Below, piece after piece: positions 1,375 to 8,935 of a stretch of DNA of 10,618 bases (the first letter of the stretch is position 1; each line of letters begins with the position of its first letter). A program made the translations under genes and the position numbers. The DNA comes from Temnopleurus reevesii (lineage: Eukaryota; Echinodermata; Echinoidea; Temnopleuroida; Temnopleuridae), in NCBI GenBank assembly GCA_036244855.1, contig BQKZ01002886.1, positions 23,851 through 34,468 on the forward strand, in the 5' to 3' direction. The notes beneath the pieces were generated by a model. That model did not search any database. It was not told the origin of the DNA and saw nothing but the letters and a program-made list of their open reading frames with translations.

Positions 1375-1551
1375 TCGATGGTGGTTGGGGCGAGTGGAGT
1401 GATTGGGGAACATGAAGCACTCGTCGCCCCCGGGGGAGGGGTAGCCGCTACAGGAGAAGAGAATGCAACGCACCACCCCCTCAGTTCGGCGGCAGTCGAT
1501 GTCAGGGGCGAAGCACCGAACGAGAAAAATGCACCAAAACTCAACTTCCAG
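1375..1551 (+). pseudogene. Broken thrombospondin type-1 repeat exon
   Basis: This 177-bp stretch between an acceptor (ends 1374) and a donor (GT at 1552) aligns without gaps to the intact TSP1 exon at 3111-3287. After the split Val codon it reads DGGWGEWSDWGT, so the three stacked tryptophans (residues 5, 8, 11) are kept, as are Cys-31, Cys-43 and Cys-53. However, Cys-14 is TGA (1413-1415), the Cys-19 position is CCC (1428-1430) and Cys-58 is CTT (1545-1547). In the usual group-1 pairing (C1-C5, C2-C6, C3-C4) only one disulfide could form. The phases (1 in, 1 out) are still symmetric, so skipping the exon would keep the frame. It is most likely a dead duplicate, though poor assembly quality nearby (adapter at 1773) means base errors cannot be excluded. 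Confidence 0.85.
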
Positions 1552-1709: not shown

Positions 1710-1741
1710 GATGGACCATGGTAACATAGGACCAAGTTGTT

Positions 1742-1851
1742 TTGTGTGTTTTTTTTTTGGGGGGGGGTTTTTTAAGCAGAAGACGGCATACGAGAAAAAC
1801 TTGTGACTGGAGTTTATATTTGTGCGCTTTCTATTTTTTTGGGGGGGGGGG
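1742..1851. other. Sequencing artefact: Illumina P7 index adapter with homopolymer flanks
   Basis: Bases 1774-1795 match positions 2-23 of the Illumina P7 oligonucleotide exactly (AAGCAGAAGACGGC then ATACGAGA). After one expected T (here A) and a six-base index-like stretch comes GTGACTGGAGTT at 1803-1814, the start of the TruSeq index-side sequence. The next 22 bases match the rest of that adapter at 14 positions, with most mismatches reading T. The whole fits 64 bases, 1773-1836, the length expected for a six-base index. Read on the minus strand it is a classic read-through: insert, adapter, then run-off homopolymers (A and C runs). The T/G runs at 1749-1773 and 1837-1851 are part of the artefact. 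Open frames across this region are not biological. Confidence 0.95.
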
Positions 1852-2830: not shown

Positions 2831-3110
2831 GTATACACACAACCCCTCAAAATATAATGCATTTATTTGGTAAACAGGCAGATCTGCGGGCTGTATGTTG
2901 AATTAAATCCAGGAATAACACGATATAGGATATTTCCGAAAAGTTAAGAGAGCCACACACAATAGAACCGTACGCCATGTCTTCAACTGTGTGGACACAA
3001 CAATCGCAAGCCGGTTCTGACTTGAATAGCATTACAAACGACCATTGAATTTCCAGTCGACTTAAGTTTTCGAAAATAGTTTATATCGTGTTGAATATTC
3101 TTTCCCGCAG

Positions 3111-3287
3111 TTGACGGTGGTTGGGGCGAGTGGTCCGATTGGAGTCCGTGTACTGCCCAGCGGTGCCGGGGGAAAGGGATGCGCTTCAGGACCAGGGACT
3201 GCGACGCACCACGCCCTCAGTTCGGTGGAAGCTATTGTCATGGGACAAGCAGTGACAGCGAGACATGCAAGAAACCCGATTGCCCAG
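3111..3287 (+). CDS. Thrombospondin type-1 repeat, internal exon
   Basis: This is one complete TSP1 domain of 59 codons, an extracellular three-stranded fold that commonly mediates matrix, receptor or glycosaminoglycan binding. The acceptor TTTCCCGCAG ends at 3110 and the donor CCAG|GTAAAC starts at 3288, giving a symmetric phase 1-1 exon. The frame begins VDGGWGEWSDWSPC, with layered tryptophans at residues 5, 8 and 11. Cysteines sit at 14, 19, 31, 43, 53 and 58, the six-cysteine set. The basic stretch RFRTRDC supplies the arginines that usually stack between the tryptophans. WGEW and WSDW-type spacing fits the WxxW motif for C-mannosylation. C1 and C2 are separated by four residues and R precedes C2, so the usual O-fucose motif is absent. 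The neighbouring exon at 4507 continues in phase. The parent protein is unknown, and many families (ADAMTS, hemicentin, semaphorin-5, secreted TSP1 arrays) share this domain. Confidence 0.9.
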
Positions 3288-4040
3288 GTAAACATCTGGA
3301 CATTGCTTTCGGAAGACAGACATTCATTCATTTCTTTGTTTCCATTTTTGTAAGTCCTGTATGTCTCCTAGTCATTCATAGCTCATTCAAGCGCCTTGAG
3401 CATTTAATCAAAATGGATAATGGCGCTCGACAATCTCGTGTATATTTAATATAGGTCTTCCGGCCAATTTCATCAGAGTTGCATTCAAATCAACGAATGG
3501 ATGTTGAGATTCCACTTTCGTGATCGCACTTGTACCATGGTTCCTTTTCCTTTATTTGTCATTCAATTTAGTTTAATATTATTCCTTTAATCTTACTACT
3601 AGTTCAAGTTAGCGGAATATCAATTCCACTTTGAATTATGCACTTCTTGTGGTTTGTTAAATTGTTCGTTCTTACTTTCATGCTGAAATAAGAAAATATT
3701 AATCGCATGTCCATTAAGTCAAATCAAAGGAAGAATATTAAGGTAGTTAAGCAAATGCGGGTCTTGCAGGTATATCACGCTTCACGATATCATGTTTATG
3801 CAAGCTTAAAAGAAAGGGTTCGTAAGTGAGGGGTGCTATTGTTTGGCATAATGAATTCCCCCGACGGAAGTAAAAGTACCTTAATTTACGTCTCCAGCGA
3901 GAAATGATCATAATCCGCTGCTCTCTTTTGCCAGCAATAGTTGTTGGATTGTTCTCAATTCCGTTCAACACCGTTATAATAGGCAACATATTCCAGGGAT
4001 AGATTATGAGACCCGGGCATAACAATCACGGCGCGGCATC
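3288..4040 (+). other. Intron between the two intact TSP1 exons, first part
   Basis: The intron starts with donor GTAAAC at 3288. I see no repeat or coding signal. Open frames at 3179-3454 and 3747-4025 (minus) are compositionally noise or shadows of the exon. Confidence 0.55.
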
Positions 4041-4157
4041 CATGGCACGGCGCCATGGCACGGCGTCATGGCACGGCATCATGGCACATCGTCATGGCAC
4101 GACGTCATGGCACGGTGTCATGGCACGGTATCATGGCACGGCATCAAGGCACGGCCT
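4041..4157 (+). repeat. 13-bp minisatellite, nine copies
   Basis: Consensus CATGGCACGGCGT repeats nine times head to tail at exact 13-base steps (4041, 4054, 4067, 4080, 4093, 4106, 4119, 4132, 4145). Changes concentrate in the last five bases of each unit, and the final unit starts CAAGG. A more degenerate unit may precede at 4028. The GC-rich array stands out from AT-rich surroundings. The 13-base period cannot encode a protein repeat. Confidence 0.95.
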
Positions 4158-4506: not shown

Positions 4507-4691
4507 TTGACGGTGGTTGGAGTGAGTGGATCGATTCATCAGACTGTTCTGTCACCTGCGGACGGAGCGGCCGTATAAATCAGAGGAGGTCGTGTACCAA
4601 CCCGGCCCCAGTCCTAGGGGGCAAGGACTGTGAAGGTGACTCCTCCAGGTTGACACCCTGCAGGGGCCTACCACACTGTGAGGGTGATGAG
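4507..4691 (+). CDS. Thrombospondin type-1 repeat, penultimate exon
   Basis: This is a second intact TSP1 domain (62 codons counting the split first codon), preceded by acceptor TACAACAG ending at 4506. It reads VDGGWSEWIDSSDC, so the first two tryptophans are present but the third is Ser (residue 11). Cysteines are at 14, 18, 30, 42, 52 and 58. CSVTCGRSG fits the protein O-fucosylation motif C-x2-3-S/T-C-x2-G, and WSEW fits C-mannosylation. Two donors exist: GAG|GTAAGT at 4692 (strong, exit phase 0) and GAGG|GTGATG at 4684 (weaker, phase 1, which would make the exon 177 bp like its siblings). I chose 4691 because the next plausible exon, at 5640, opens in phase 0. Its 3' half is tandemly copied downstream (4741-5405). 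The domain call is sure; the exact 3' end is less so. Confidence 0.88.
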
Positions 4692-5405
4692 GTAAGTAGA
4701 GTCTTAGAAAAGAATTTCTTAAAGGGTTAACCGTTGTATGTGCACGAACGCGGCCCCAGCCCGACGGGGCAAAGACTGTGAAGGTGACTCCACCAGGTTG
4801 ATACCCTGCAGGAGCCTACCACAGTGTGAGGGTGATGAGGTAGGTAGAATCTTAGAAAAGAAGTTCTTAAAGGGTTAACCGTTGGATGTGCACCAACCCG
4901 GCTACTCTGTAGAGGCCTACCTTGACGTGTAGGGGCTCATTCGGTAAAGCCCTGGTCACATAGGACACCGGACCCTTTGTTCAGTTCACAGTTAGCTGCC
5001 TGCGAACTAAGAGTCGTGTTGAATCGTGTTGCTTCCGGGGCCCTATGTGACCGGGGCTTAAATGGATTCTTAGAAAAGAAGCTTTCAAAGGATTAATCTA
5101 TTGATGTGCACCAACCCGGCCTCAGCCCGCAGGGGCAGGCACTGCAAAAGCGACCGATCAAAGAGGGTACCCTGCAATGATCTCAGCGTGAAGGGTCTCA
5201 TTCGGTAAGTAGAATCTTAGGAAAAAAGTTCTTAAAGGGTTAACCGTTGGATGTGCACCAACCTGGCCCCAGCCCGACGGGGTAAGGACTGTGGAGGTGA
5301 CCTATTAAGGAGGGGAGGGTTCACTGCTAATATCTATTTTAGCGTGAAGGATCTCCTTAAAGTAGATTCTTAGAAAATATGTTCTTTAAAGGTATAAAAA
5401 TACAT
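4593..5405 (+). repeat. Tandem array: 3' half of the TSP1 exon plus donor and intron start
   Basis: Units of about 148 bp start at 4593 (inside the real exon), 4741, 4889, 5107 and 5254. Each runs from TGC/TGT-ACC-AAC-CCG through the last TSP1 cysteines and the donor, then into the intron word CTTAGAAAAGAAGTTCTTAAAGGG. Unit 2 (4741-4888) is well kept: it is open from CTNAAPARRGKDC to EGDE and keeps a donor, GAG|GTAGGT. Unit 3 is deleted internally and holds a MITE. Unit 4 is diverged but keeps three cysteine codons and then hits TAA. Unit 5 is degenerate. None has an evident acceptor, so they are probably intronic relics rather than exons. Confidence 0.9.
4948..5058. mobile_element. MITE family A, copy 2 (111 bp) inside the half-exon array
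   Basis: The ends are AGCCCTGGTCACATAGG and, in reverse complement, AGCCCCGGTCACATAGG. TAA duplicates flank it (4945-4947, 5059-5061). Sister array units carry the uninterrupted site, GGTAAGTAGA at about 5215-5224, so insertion boundaries are fixed by comparison. Inner words AGAGTCGTGTTGAA and TTGCTTCCGG match the copy at 4254-4384. Insertion came after the array began to form. Confidence 0.9.
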
Positions 5406-5639
5406 TTGCACACATTACGGTTATGCTTACAACTTGTTGTGCACCTCAGATATGCTAAAATAATAACCTTTATGAAGTATTCTGGTCGAATGTAGTCCAG
5501 AATATTTAATTGCAACCGGAATAGTCATGTCGATCATCGATCATGACGGACTGACTTTAACATATATCATCATGTTAGTGGAACTTTAAAGGAATCCTCT
5601 ATTTTCTTTGCTTATGTCTTCCACCTCCTGCTGCTCCAG
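5406..5639 (+). other. End of last intron with strong 3' splice site
   Basis: The stretch is AT-rich and ends in a long pyrimidine tract (5594-5636, TCCTCTATTTTC to CCTCCTGCTGCTCCAG), with the acceptor CAG at 5637-5639. The tract is the best-looking acceptor downstream of the TSP1 exons. Confidence 0.6.
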
Positions 5640-5885
5640 TTTTCTTCTTTTTCTGATACCTGGGAGTCAGAAAGTCTGAGGCCAGTGATAGATGTCTCCC
5701 CATCTTCAGATTGTCGAGAGGAATCAGCCAGCTCATCATGGTCATCGGGCTCAGAACAGGGCGGGGCGACTACCCCCAGCGAGGGTCCACACCAGAGTTT
5801 TGACGAGCACTCCCGCTGGAGTTCGGAATCGGTTGCAGATGTCCCTACCGACGCTGATCCATTCGGAAGCAGCTTTCGATCATAA
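5640..5885 (+). CDS. Probable terminal exon: acidic, serine-rich C-terminal tail
   Basis: After the acceptor at 5639 the frame is open for 81 codons to TAA at 5883-5885, starting FSSFSDTWESES and ending DPFGSSFRS. By my count 24 residues are Ser and 15 are Asp or Glu. There is no hydrophobic segment and only one Cys, so it is not another TSP1 domain. Motifs such as SDTWE and SSESVAD suit acidophilic kinases (CK2-like) if the tail were cytoplasmic, but no membrane segment is visible between it and the TSP1 exons. It begins in phase 0, matching the GTAAGT donor at 4692. The compositional contrast with the AT-rich flanks, the pyrimidine tract and the phase match argue for a real exon. No family is recognised. 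Alternatively it could join an exon outside this model. Confidence 0.65.
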   Translation, partial: FSSFSDTWESESLRPVIDVSPSSDCREESASSSWSSGSEQGGATTPSEGPHQSFDEHSRWSSESVADVPTDADPFGSSFRS

Positions 5886-6177: not shown

Positions 6178-6990
6178 GACTGATCTGCTCGCCACTTTCG
6201 AACAATGGACGTAACTTTAAAGGGGAATTACACCCAGGAAATAATGTACGGTCAGTAAATAGAGATTAATTAGATGAACAAACTGCGAAAATCTGAGCAA
6301 AATCCGATAATCCGCTCAAAAGTTGCGAATTTTCTAAGTTATCATTTCCACCTGTGCTGGGCATCCTTAAATTGTATAGCCAATTAGCATAATCTGTGAT
6401 GTCATACATGGAGAACTCCTCATTTGCTTTATACATGAATGTATTAAAAATTGATAAATATCATGTTTAAGATGAGGAACCAACATCGTTCTTTGTGTAA
6501 TGCCTGCAGAATTGATTCGGCTATAATATATTTAAACGAAAAAAAAAACAAAATTTTGTCTACTTTTCTGGAAAAAGAAGAAAATGTGAAATTTCGTGTA
6601 CAAAGTGAATGTAGAGTAAGTTCTCCATGTTGGCAGCCATTTTGTGCCTGTACGTTTGCCAATTTAAGGAGCCCATGAGGGGTAAAAATAAAAACTTTGA
6701 AAATTCATAACTTTTGAATGGATTATCAGATTTTGCTAAAATTTTCACAGTTTGTTCATCTTAGTTTTCTCCATTTAATGATAGCAATTTAATGTCTGAG
6801 TGTAGTTCCCCTTTAAGACATCAAACATAGTCTCTGATTCGTCAATTCATTTCTCATGAAACAAAGTATGTCTAAGTATTTACACGTGGCTACCGACAGA
6901 TCTAAAAGACTGAGCTGCTCACCATTTTCGACCAATGGACGTAACTTTAAGACATCAAACATAGTCTCTGATTCGTCAATTCATTTGACA
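6178..6990 (+). repeat. Tandem duplication of about 134 bp, first copy split by a transposon
   Basis: Copy 1 is 6178-6220 plus 6817-6907; copy 2 is 6908 to about 6990. Shared words are GACTGAnCTGCTC, CAATGGACGTAACTTTAA and GACATCAAACATAGTCTCTG followed by ATTCGTCAATTCATTT. Removing the 596 bp of transposon plus duplicated TTAA gives a 134-bp period. Copy 2 keeps the uninterrupted site. Confidence 0.9.
6221..6812. mobile_element. 592-bp palindromic TTAA element (non-autonomous)
   Basis: The ends are AGGGGAATTACACCCAG and, in reverse complement, AGGGGAACTACACTCAG. TTAA is duplicated on both sides (6217-6220, 6813-6816). The arms stay alignable for at least 115 bases (GATGAACAAACTG, TAATCC, TTCAAAAGTT against CTCAAAAGTT) and, with gaps, to ACATGGAGAACT near the middle, so it is a foldback-type MITE. 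TTAA targeting is the habit of piggyBac-like transposases, which would have to act in trans. Open frames at 6444-6748 on either strand are mirror images of each other across the palindrome and not genes. Confidence 0.9.
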
Positions 6991-7064
6991 AGAAGTCAAG
7001 ACGTCTTAGCGAGAAGAGGATAGCTAAGACCATTTCGAGCAATCGGCCCCTGTTGTATAATATT

Positions 7065-7908
7065 CCCGAGTTTACGCTCGACAACGGAGCGGCTCAACGA
7101 CGGGAGAATTCGTCAGATTCCCGCGTTCTTGCTAACCCGTCCTTATTCCCTCCGTTGCTCTTAACTTCTGTTACGCTACTCGCTCAACGGCAGTATGCAA
7201 ATTGAGTGTGACGAGCTTTCACGCCGAAATCCAAAGATTTGCATAATAGGCACGTGATACGCTTGGCCGCATCTGATTGGCTACGTTCCTGCATCTAAGA
7301 CGGACGTGGGATTCAGCAAAAACCGTTGTAGAATTCTGCTCTTCGCCGCTGTTGTCACTGGCAACCAGCGAAGCCGACTTAAACGGGTCAAAAATGGTAT
7401 TGATCAGCGATTTTGCCGTTCGTGATGACGGTGCGTAACCTTGCTATTATTGCACCTTCATGAAAAAGGGCAATATTATATTGCCCCCTGAAAGGTGAAG
7501 CTCCCTAAAATTTCAAAAGTGAGGTTACGCACCGTCATCACGAACGGCAAAATTGCTGATCAATACCATCTTCGACCCGTTTAAGTCGGCTTCGCTGGTT
7601 GCCAGTGACAACAGCAGCGAAGAGCAGAATTTTACAACGGTTTTTGCTCAATCCCACGTCCGTCTTAGATGCAGTAACGTAACCAATCAGATGCGGCCAA
7701 GCGTATCACGTGCCTATTATGCAAATCTTTGGATTTCGGCGTGAAAGCTTGACTCCTGACGTCACACTCAATTGGCATATCGCCGTTGATCAAGTAGCGT
7801 AACAGAAGTTAAGAGCAACGGAGGGAATAAGAAAGGGTTAGCAAGAACGCAGGAATCTGACGAATTTTCCCGTCGTTGAGCCGCTCCGTTGTCCAGCGTA
7901 AACTCGGG
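7065..7908. mobile_element. 844-bp near-perfect palindrome (foldback element)
   Basis: Left arm 7065 to about 7440 and right arm about 7530 to 7908 are reverse complements at high identity, beginning CCCGAGTTTACGCT and ending AGCGTAAACTCGGG. The middle holds a 19-base perfect palindrome, GGGCAATAT-T-ATATTGCCC (7468-7486), and flanking CACCTTCA / TGAAAGGTG, so pairing nearly reaches the centre. Both arms keep ATTTGCAT (7237-7244; mirrored 7719-7726), CACGTG (7251-7256; 7707-7712) and ATTGG/CCAAT (7276-7280; 7683-7687). I see no coding frame and no clear target duplication. Open frames at 7553-7744 and 7809-8006 are incidental. Confidence 0.9.
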
Positions 7909-8935
7909 GAAAGTCTCTTGGTCGACGGAGTCGTGAAGCTGCTACCAATTTTTACATTAATTTGCAACTTTGTTTCCTTAGTGTGCTGTGTATTGAAACA
8001 AAACACAATGTATTCCCCCTTTCGTATACTCTGACAGAATGAATGACATTTCTAATATGCAGCAGCGACGGGGTAGTTATTTCAGGATGTTTAACTGGAC
8101 AGAACGAAGGACATTATGTAACGAGTAAGATCATTCATGCGTAAAAATAATTACAGTGTGTTTTATGGGATACAGGACATGTATATTAGGATGTGTTTCC
8201 AAAAAGAAAATTCACTCTGTACATAAAATATGTATGCACATTCAATGGTGACCCATGTCATTTTTAGTAATGTATTTTATCACATTTTGCAGAGTTTGTA
8301 CCGCGCTCAATTAAAAACACAACTGAACAATATCAGACCGAATGGAGAAATTCGACATCGAATTTCATATGCTCAAAAGGGTAGCTACTATTGGGTAGAG
8401 CAGCTCTACGCCCCCCCCCCCCCCCCCCCCCCCCCCTCACAAAAAATATATGCAAGGACCCCGTGAAAGTGGCTTGAAGTGGACTTGAATTCCAGTTTGC
8501 GCTTCCCTAATCTGAACGGGGACACAACTGACCGTCCAAACCTGCTTTCAAAACTAGTTTAGTGGAAGCCATTTTGAAAACTAGGTTCGAACGGGGTCAA
8601 ACGAGCTGATAAAATGAACTAGAACAGTGTAAGATCAATCAATTTGATATGTGATGTCGTGCACGGGGTCATGACTTGTTTTCTATTTATGGACGACTTT
8701 TATTGTCTGAACTCAAGTAAACACATGCATATGACGTCACGCACGGAACGGAATACACATTAAAAGTTAAACGAGCAGCAAACTATTAATCTTGTTATTA
8801 TGTTCTTTTTATTCTACATGTTGTACAAGGTATACACAATTTCTATGAGATCATCAGATATTTACAAAGAGGTGCGAAGATGGATGATTAAAAGCATGAA
8901 GATTGTCAATTTGATCATAGTTCACACAAGTTTAA
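7909..8935. other. Non-coding stretch with one poly-C run
   Basis: Nothing resembling a gene, RNA or transposon end is seen apart from the 26-base C run at 8411-8436. The 78-codon frame at 8230-8466 runs through that C run and has no domain features. Confidence 0.5.
8411..8436 (+). repeat. 26-base poly-C run
   Basis: An uninterrupted C run sits in otherwise AT-rich DNA, without the GC-rich context of the similar run at 2553. The true length is uncertain on short-read assemblies. Confidence 0.9.

Follow-up and report, generated by a model that had tools for sequence, protein, structure and literature searches.

A degraded Illumina P7/TruSeq index adapter, almost certainly a sequencing artefact, in an apparent intron between two TSP1 exons

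Introduction

The closest described counterparts of the locus reported here are copies of the same Illumina adapter in at least 240 further public stretches, which were collected as a control set defined by an exact adapter core (described below) in at least 120 viral contig stretches and at least 120 prokaryote genome stretches. Among the matches listed there are 244 copies of the core in 240 loci; at most 200 bases of the stretch remain on the P7 side in 234 of the 244 listed matches (119 of 123 viral, 115 of 121 genome), and 208 of the 240 full-length frames listed are without mismatch (101 of 122 viral, 107 of 118 genome). The sequence beyond P7 has a recurrent composition in the listed copies: of the 233 that have at least six bases on the P7 side, 220 show a T-run of four or more immediately next to P7, positions 7-12 beyond P7 are 87% T and 9% G, the positions 31-40 bases beyond hold 33% T and 33% G (n=132 listed copies; raw values, without genome background), and T/G-rich sequence reaches out to 80 bases on this side, likewise without genome background. 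The listed genome copies are not independent, many of them coming from few assemblies, and of at most 121 listed genome matches 67 have one index and 24 another.

Degraded copies are also found in this set. Of the 14 listed frames with four or more mismatches, one (L045) has five of six errors to G or T in the same adapter part as the copy described here and another (L038) has all four errors to G or T, and the other 12 show mostly small deletions or early insert junctions, as judged by eye. Among phage records, seven of 50,697 match the 64 bases of the adapter stretch, with 79.7-83.7% identity to the copy in our window (the whole stretch of 10,618 nucleotides that was analysed); two of these seven matches start at record positions 5 and 8, one lies within 200 bases of the end and four are internal.

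The adapter match

The features at and beside the match are as follows.

1736..1772, + strand: T/G run-off tail, with a T/G-rich start, T10 (1749-1758), G9 (1759-1767) and T5 (1768-1772); left edge approximate
1773..1836, + strand: 64-base frame that matches the Illumina P7/TruSeq index adapter at 48 of its 58 fixed positions
1774..1795, + strand: 22 bases identical to the P7 flow-cell oligonucleotide, AAGCAGAAGACGGCATACGAGA
1797..1802, + strand: six-base index position, read AAACTT
1803..1814, + strand: GTGACTGGAGTT, exact start (12 bases) of the TruSeq read-2 primer region
1815..1836, + strand: remainder of the read-2 primer region, degraded, 14 of 22 identical
1837..1851, + strand: T4 followed by G11 (1841-1851), on the insert side

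This stretch is almost certainly a sequencing artefact, namely an Illumina P7/TruSeq adapter left in the assembly. The P7 and TruSeq primer strings are printed together in published papers. The sequence-only reading had proposed an embedded P7 index adapter made up of a 22-base exact match, an index-like gap and the TruSeq spacing, and each of these elements was found: an exact 41-base core occupies 1774-1814 and consists of AAGCAGAAGACGGCATACGAGA, seven bases and GTGACTGGAGTT, the seven bases being an A at the final P7 position and then AAACTT, and P7 and the read-2 primer region are separated by exactly the six-base index spacing. Position 1773 is T where P7 has C; the P7 part is contiguous and matches at 22 of 24 positions (maximum 16 in five shuffles), and the read-2 primer region from GTGACTGGAGTT... 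to ...CCGATCT matches at 26 of 34 (maximum 20 in five shuffles). The index itself differs at two of six bases from the closest among 12 TruSeq indices; 42% of all 6-mers are as near to one of these. That natural or chance genomic sequence should resemble P7 to this degree is next to impossible, in agreement with the earlier view that chance could not be the source: none of 200 shuffles contains the 41-base core, the full frame reaches 48 of 58 against a maximum of 32 and a mean of 28.4 in 200 first-order Markov simulated windows, and the adapter stretch has no match at E 0.01 in any of 72,556 plasmid or 20,395 E. coli genome records. The 244 embedded copies in the listed loci further support its identification as an adapter.

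The error-laden continuation that had been described as filling the full 64 bases is likewise borne out, with 14 of 22 identical positions at 1815-1836 in the correct frame. All eight differences in this part are changes to T or G on the + strand. Shuffling that 22-mer 100,000 times gave a score of 14 of 22 or better in 15 cases, and four of the 21,194 22-mers in the window (both strands, adapter site included) attain it as well; this part alone would not convince, and it counts by lying in the correct frame. The string AGATCGGAAGAGC with up to two mismatches is absent from the window, as is expected because that end of the adapter is degraded.

Other adapters were also compared with the window. 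The SMRTbell adapter gave 27 matches at 1862, compared with 25 in five shuffles, and was rejected, its score being due to a TTG microsatellite: once this was masked, the score was equalled by 345 of 500 shuffles. PE2 gave 22 matches and the best of five shuffles 21, and P5, Nextera, the mate-pair junction and the loxP linker gave no score in the window above those of five shuffles. The window also holds C-runs of 25 bases (2553-2577) and 26 bases (8411-8436), the true length of which is doubtful in a short-read assembly; none of the best matches to the other adapters falls at these two runs.

Flanking runs and origin of the artefact

Positions 1736-1773 are exclusively T and G, and the T5 beside P7 becomes T6 when position 1773 is counted. 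Within the window, 40-mers with at least 38 G+T occur only at starts 1734-1737. The homopolymer run-off that had been noted on the low-coordinate side is thus present, with a T-run placed as in the great majority of the listed copies, and the T-run together with the T/G-rich tail on the P7 side points to a read that ran through off the end of its template. According to the proposed mechanism, a short fragment of the library, derived from the flank on the right, would have been sequenced on the minus strand, and the read would have passed through the insert, the TruSeq/P7 adapter and then the end of the template, where it would have produced A and C noise; one such untrimmed read, or a few, may then have been taken up by the assembler or a gap-filler. 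On the + strand this would give the order T/G noise, P7, index, primer region and insert. We infer the read direction, the four-colour chemistry and the entry at a gap or contig join.

Reads usually worsen towards their end. Such a rise of errors along the read, which is usual for read-through and not strictly defining for it, is absent in the inferred direction, in which eight of the 10 errors fall in the first 22 adapter positions and the later P7 part is clean. This insert-proximal concentration of errors counts against the proposed read direction, not against the adapter. Counted in the minus-strand direction, the 10 errors comprise eight to A, one to C and one to T; four-colour chemistry uses one laser to read A and C and a second for G and T, as described in PMC4381044, and the laser common to G and T is also mentioned in PMC2745764.

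A different origin has been considered, in which P7 lies inside the fragment of a chimeric library molecule or adapter concatemer that was read in the + direction. The degraded part at 1815-1851 with its G run, where most listed copies have a clean insert junction, would fit such a molecule, as would the + direction errors, most of which are changes to T and which become more numerous along the adapter, resembling the Genome Analyzer pattern given in PMC2745764, in which T is called for G and later also for A and C. However, a chimera or concatemer leaves the T/G run before P7 unexplained, since ordinary sequence would be expected there; read-through past the template end would produce a T/G run on that side, and 220 of 233 listed copies have a T-run there. 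We therefore consider this origin very unlikely, and read-through remains the likelier one.

On the insert side, the runs at 1837-1851 are either noise or a true G tract adjoining the insert. The insert-proximal errors and G11 could together reflect a transient loss of signal where the insert has a genuine G/C homopolymer, a reading that is unlikely; if it were true, the artefact would flag a tract that short-read chemistry could not cross, which would be a technical curiosity and no biological element.

The surrounding locus and the possibility of a false join

The adapter appears to lie within an intron of an animal-like gene, flanked by two TSP1 exons. The TSP1 exons of the window (Pfam TSP_1 cut-off 21.6 bits, exon ends judged by eye from splice signals) are the following.

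1375..1551, + strand: decayed TSP1 exon, left of the adapter, with an in-frame TGA at 1413-1415; Pfam TSP_1 27.6 bits for the piece after the stop
3111..3287, + strand: intact TSP1 exon, right of the adapter; Pfam TSP_1 42.5 bits
4507..4691, + strand: second intact TSP1 exon; Pfam TSP_1 35.3 bits

All three exons begin in the same phase. Among solved relatives of the second TSP1 exon, thrombospondin-1 chains score best, and a 120-aa two-exon query gave five hits among 10 candidates, of which the best-scoring is 41% identical; the two named hits are from Nematostella vectensis and Trichonephila clavipes. In the first exon, the TGA at 1413-1415 replaces the first cysteine, and the second and sixth cysteines are lost too (three of six). 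The adapter starts 222 bases beyond the end of this exon, and the T/G tail 185 bases beyond it. The earlier suggestion that tied the adapter to a broken TSP1 exon is not upheld: the exon is a decayed copy broken by substitutions (the in-frame TGA and the lost cysteines), and at its distance of 222 bases the adapter is not the cause of the disruption.

A false join, in which the left and right flanks would originate from separate genomic locations and have been joined at an adapter-bearing contig end, is compatible with the artefact. It would agree with the position of 234 of the 244 listed embedded adapters near the ends of their stretches, and with L124 and L223, two of the 10 listed copies in which the P7 side exceeds 200 bases: both have N within 20 bases upstream and thus lie at gaps. 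On the other hand, colinear blocks of similar sequence are found in the same orientation in both flanks: an intron block at 930-1025 is similar to 2717-2821 (E 3e-10), and 1370-1554 aligns to 3106-3290 over 185 gap-free bases with 69.7% identity (E 8e-25, self-alignment). The intron block is the better argument, the exon block alone being weak because TSP1 exons resemble each other. These alignments suggest that the two flanks of the adapter are parts of a single locus duplicated in tandem, which weakens the case for a false join, and we regard the latter as quite improbable. The blocks leave the bases next to the adapter uncovered, no similarity covering the adjoining bases having been found, and they argue that the order and orientation of the flanks are probably right while the distance between them is unreliable.

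Open frames cross the artefact, among them a 56-codon frame with an ATG (1636-1806) and, on the minus strand, a 164-codon frame from stop to stop (1365-1859), and there is no reason for calling such frames genes. The 47-aa frame at 1776-1916 gave one candidate and none at E 0.01 or better among about 5.8 billion proteins, in a search that detects only proteins of similar length sharing short words, and a literature search for the adapter peptide AEDGIRD returned no match. Rfam (at gathering thresholds) and ARAGORN gave nothing within the window.

Several other features of the window were recorded. An open frame at 5601-5885 on the + strand, ending in ...SEQGGATTPSEGPHQSFDEHSRWSSESVADVPTDADPFGSSFRS-stop, resembles by eye a terminal coding exon and may belong to the TSP1 gene. 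Degenerate tandem copies at 4592-5393, with a start-to-start spacing of 147-218 bases and a 34-base piece that occurs five times, start in the third TSP1 exon and take in its 3' end and splice donor, and a 13-base unit forms a tandem array of 8.8 copies at 4041-4155. A hairpin-forming inverted repeat at 1557-1709 (73% over 154 bases), possibly a small mobile element, lies just left of the adapter tail. Further to the right, an element with long terminal inverted repeats (146-base arms, 77%) occupies 6217-6816; near it, the 43-base stretch 6178-6220 recurs at 6908-6950 (91%) and the 50-base stretch 6811-6860 recurs at 6945-6994 (94%). A large, foldback-like inverted repeat at 7065-7908 has arms of about 390 bases that are 89% identical in a gapped self-alignment, with 66 bases between the inner arms.

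Conclusions

The adapter stretch is an ordinary artefact without biological function, and its significance is one of hygiene only. Masking is advisable for about 1736-1851, which should not be taken for sequence of the organism; distances across these positions are unreliable and open reading frames through them are suspect.

In comparison with known cases, the copy in the window is like the listed TruSeq/P7 read-through copies in its P7 letters, its spacing, its six-base index position, the T-run on the P7 side and the T/G-rich sequence beyond. Unlike most of them, it lies 1.7 kb inside its stretch, whereas theirs lie near the stretch end, and it is degraded at 10 of 58 positions, whereas theirs are error-free. 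It also differs from the average of the listed copies by having G9 close to P7, although single controls such as L130 and L151 have long G-runs in this tail. Finally, Klebsiella phage EI (MN106245.1) and Salmonella phage TS13 (MK249308.1), two of the seven phage records, carry matches to the same 64 bases in genomes other than that of the window.
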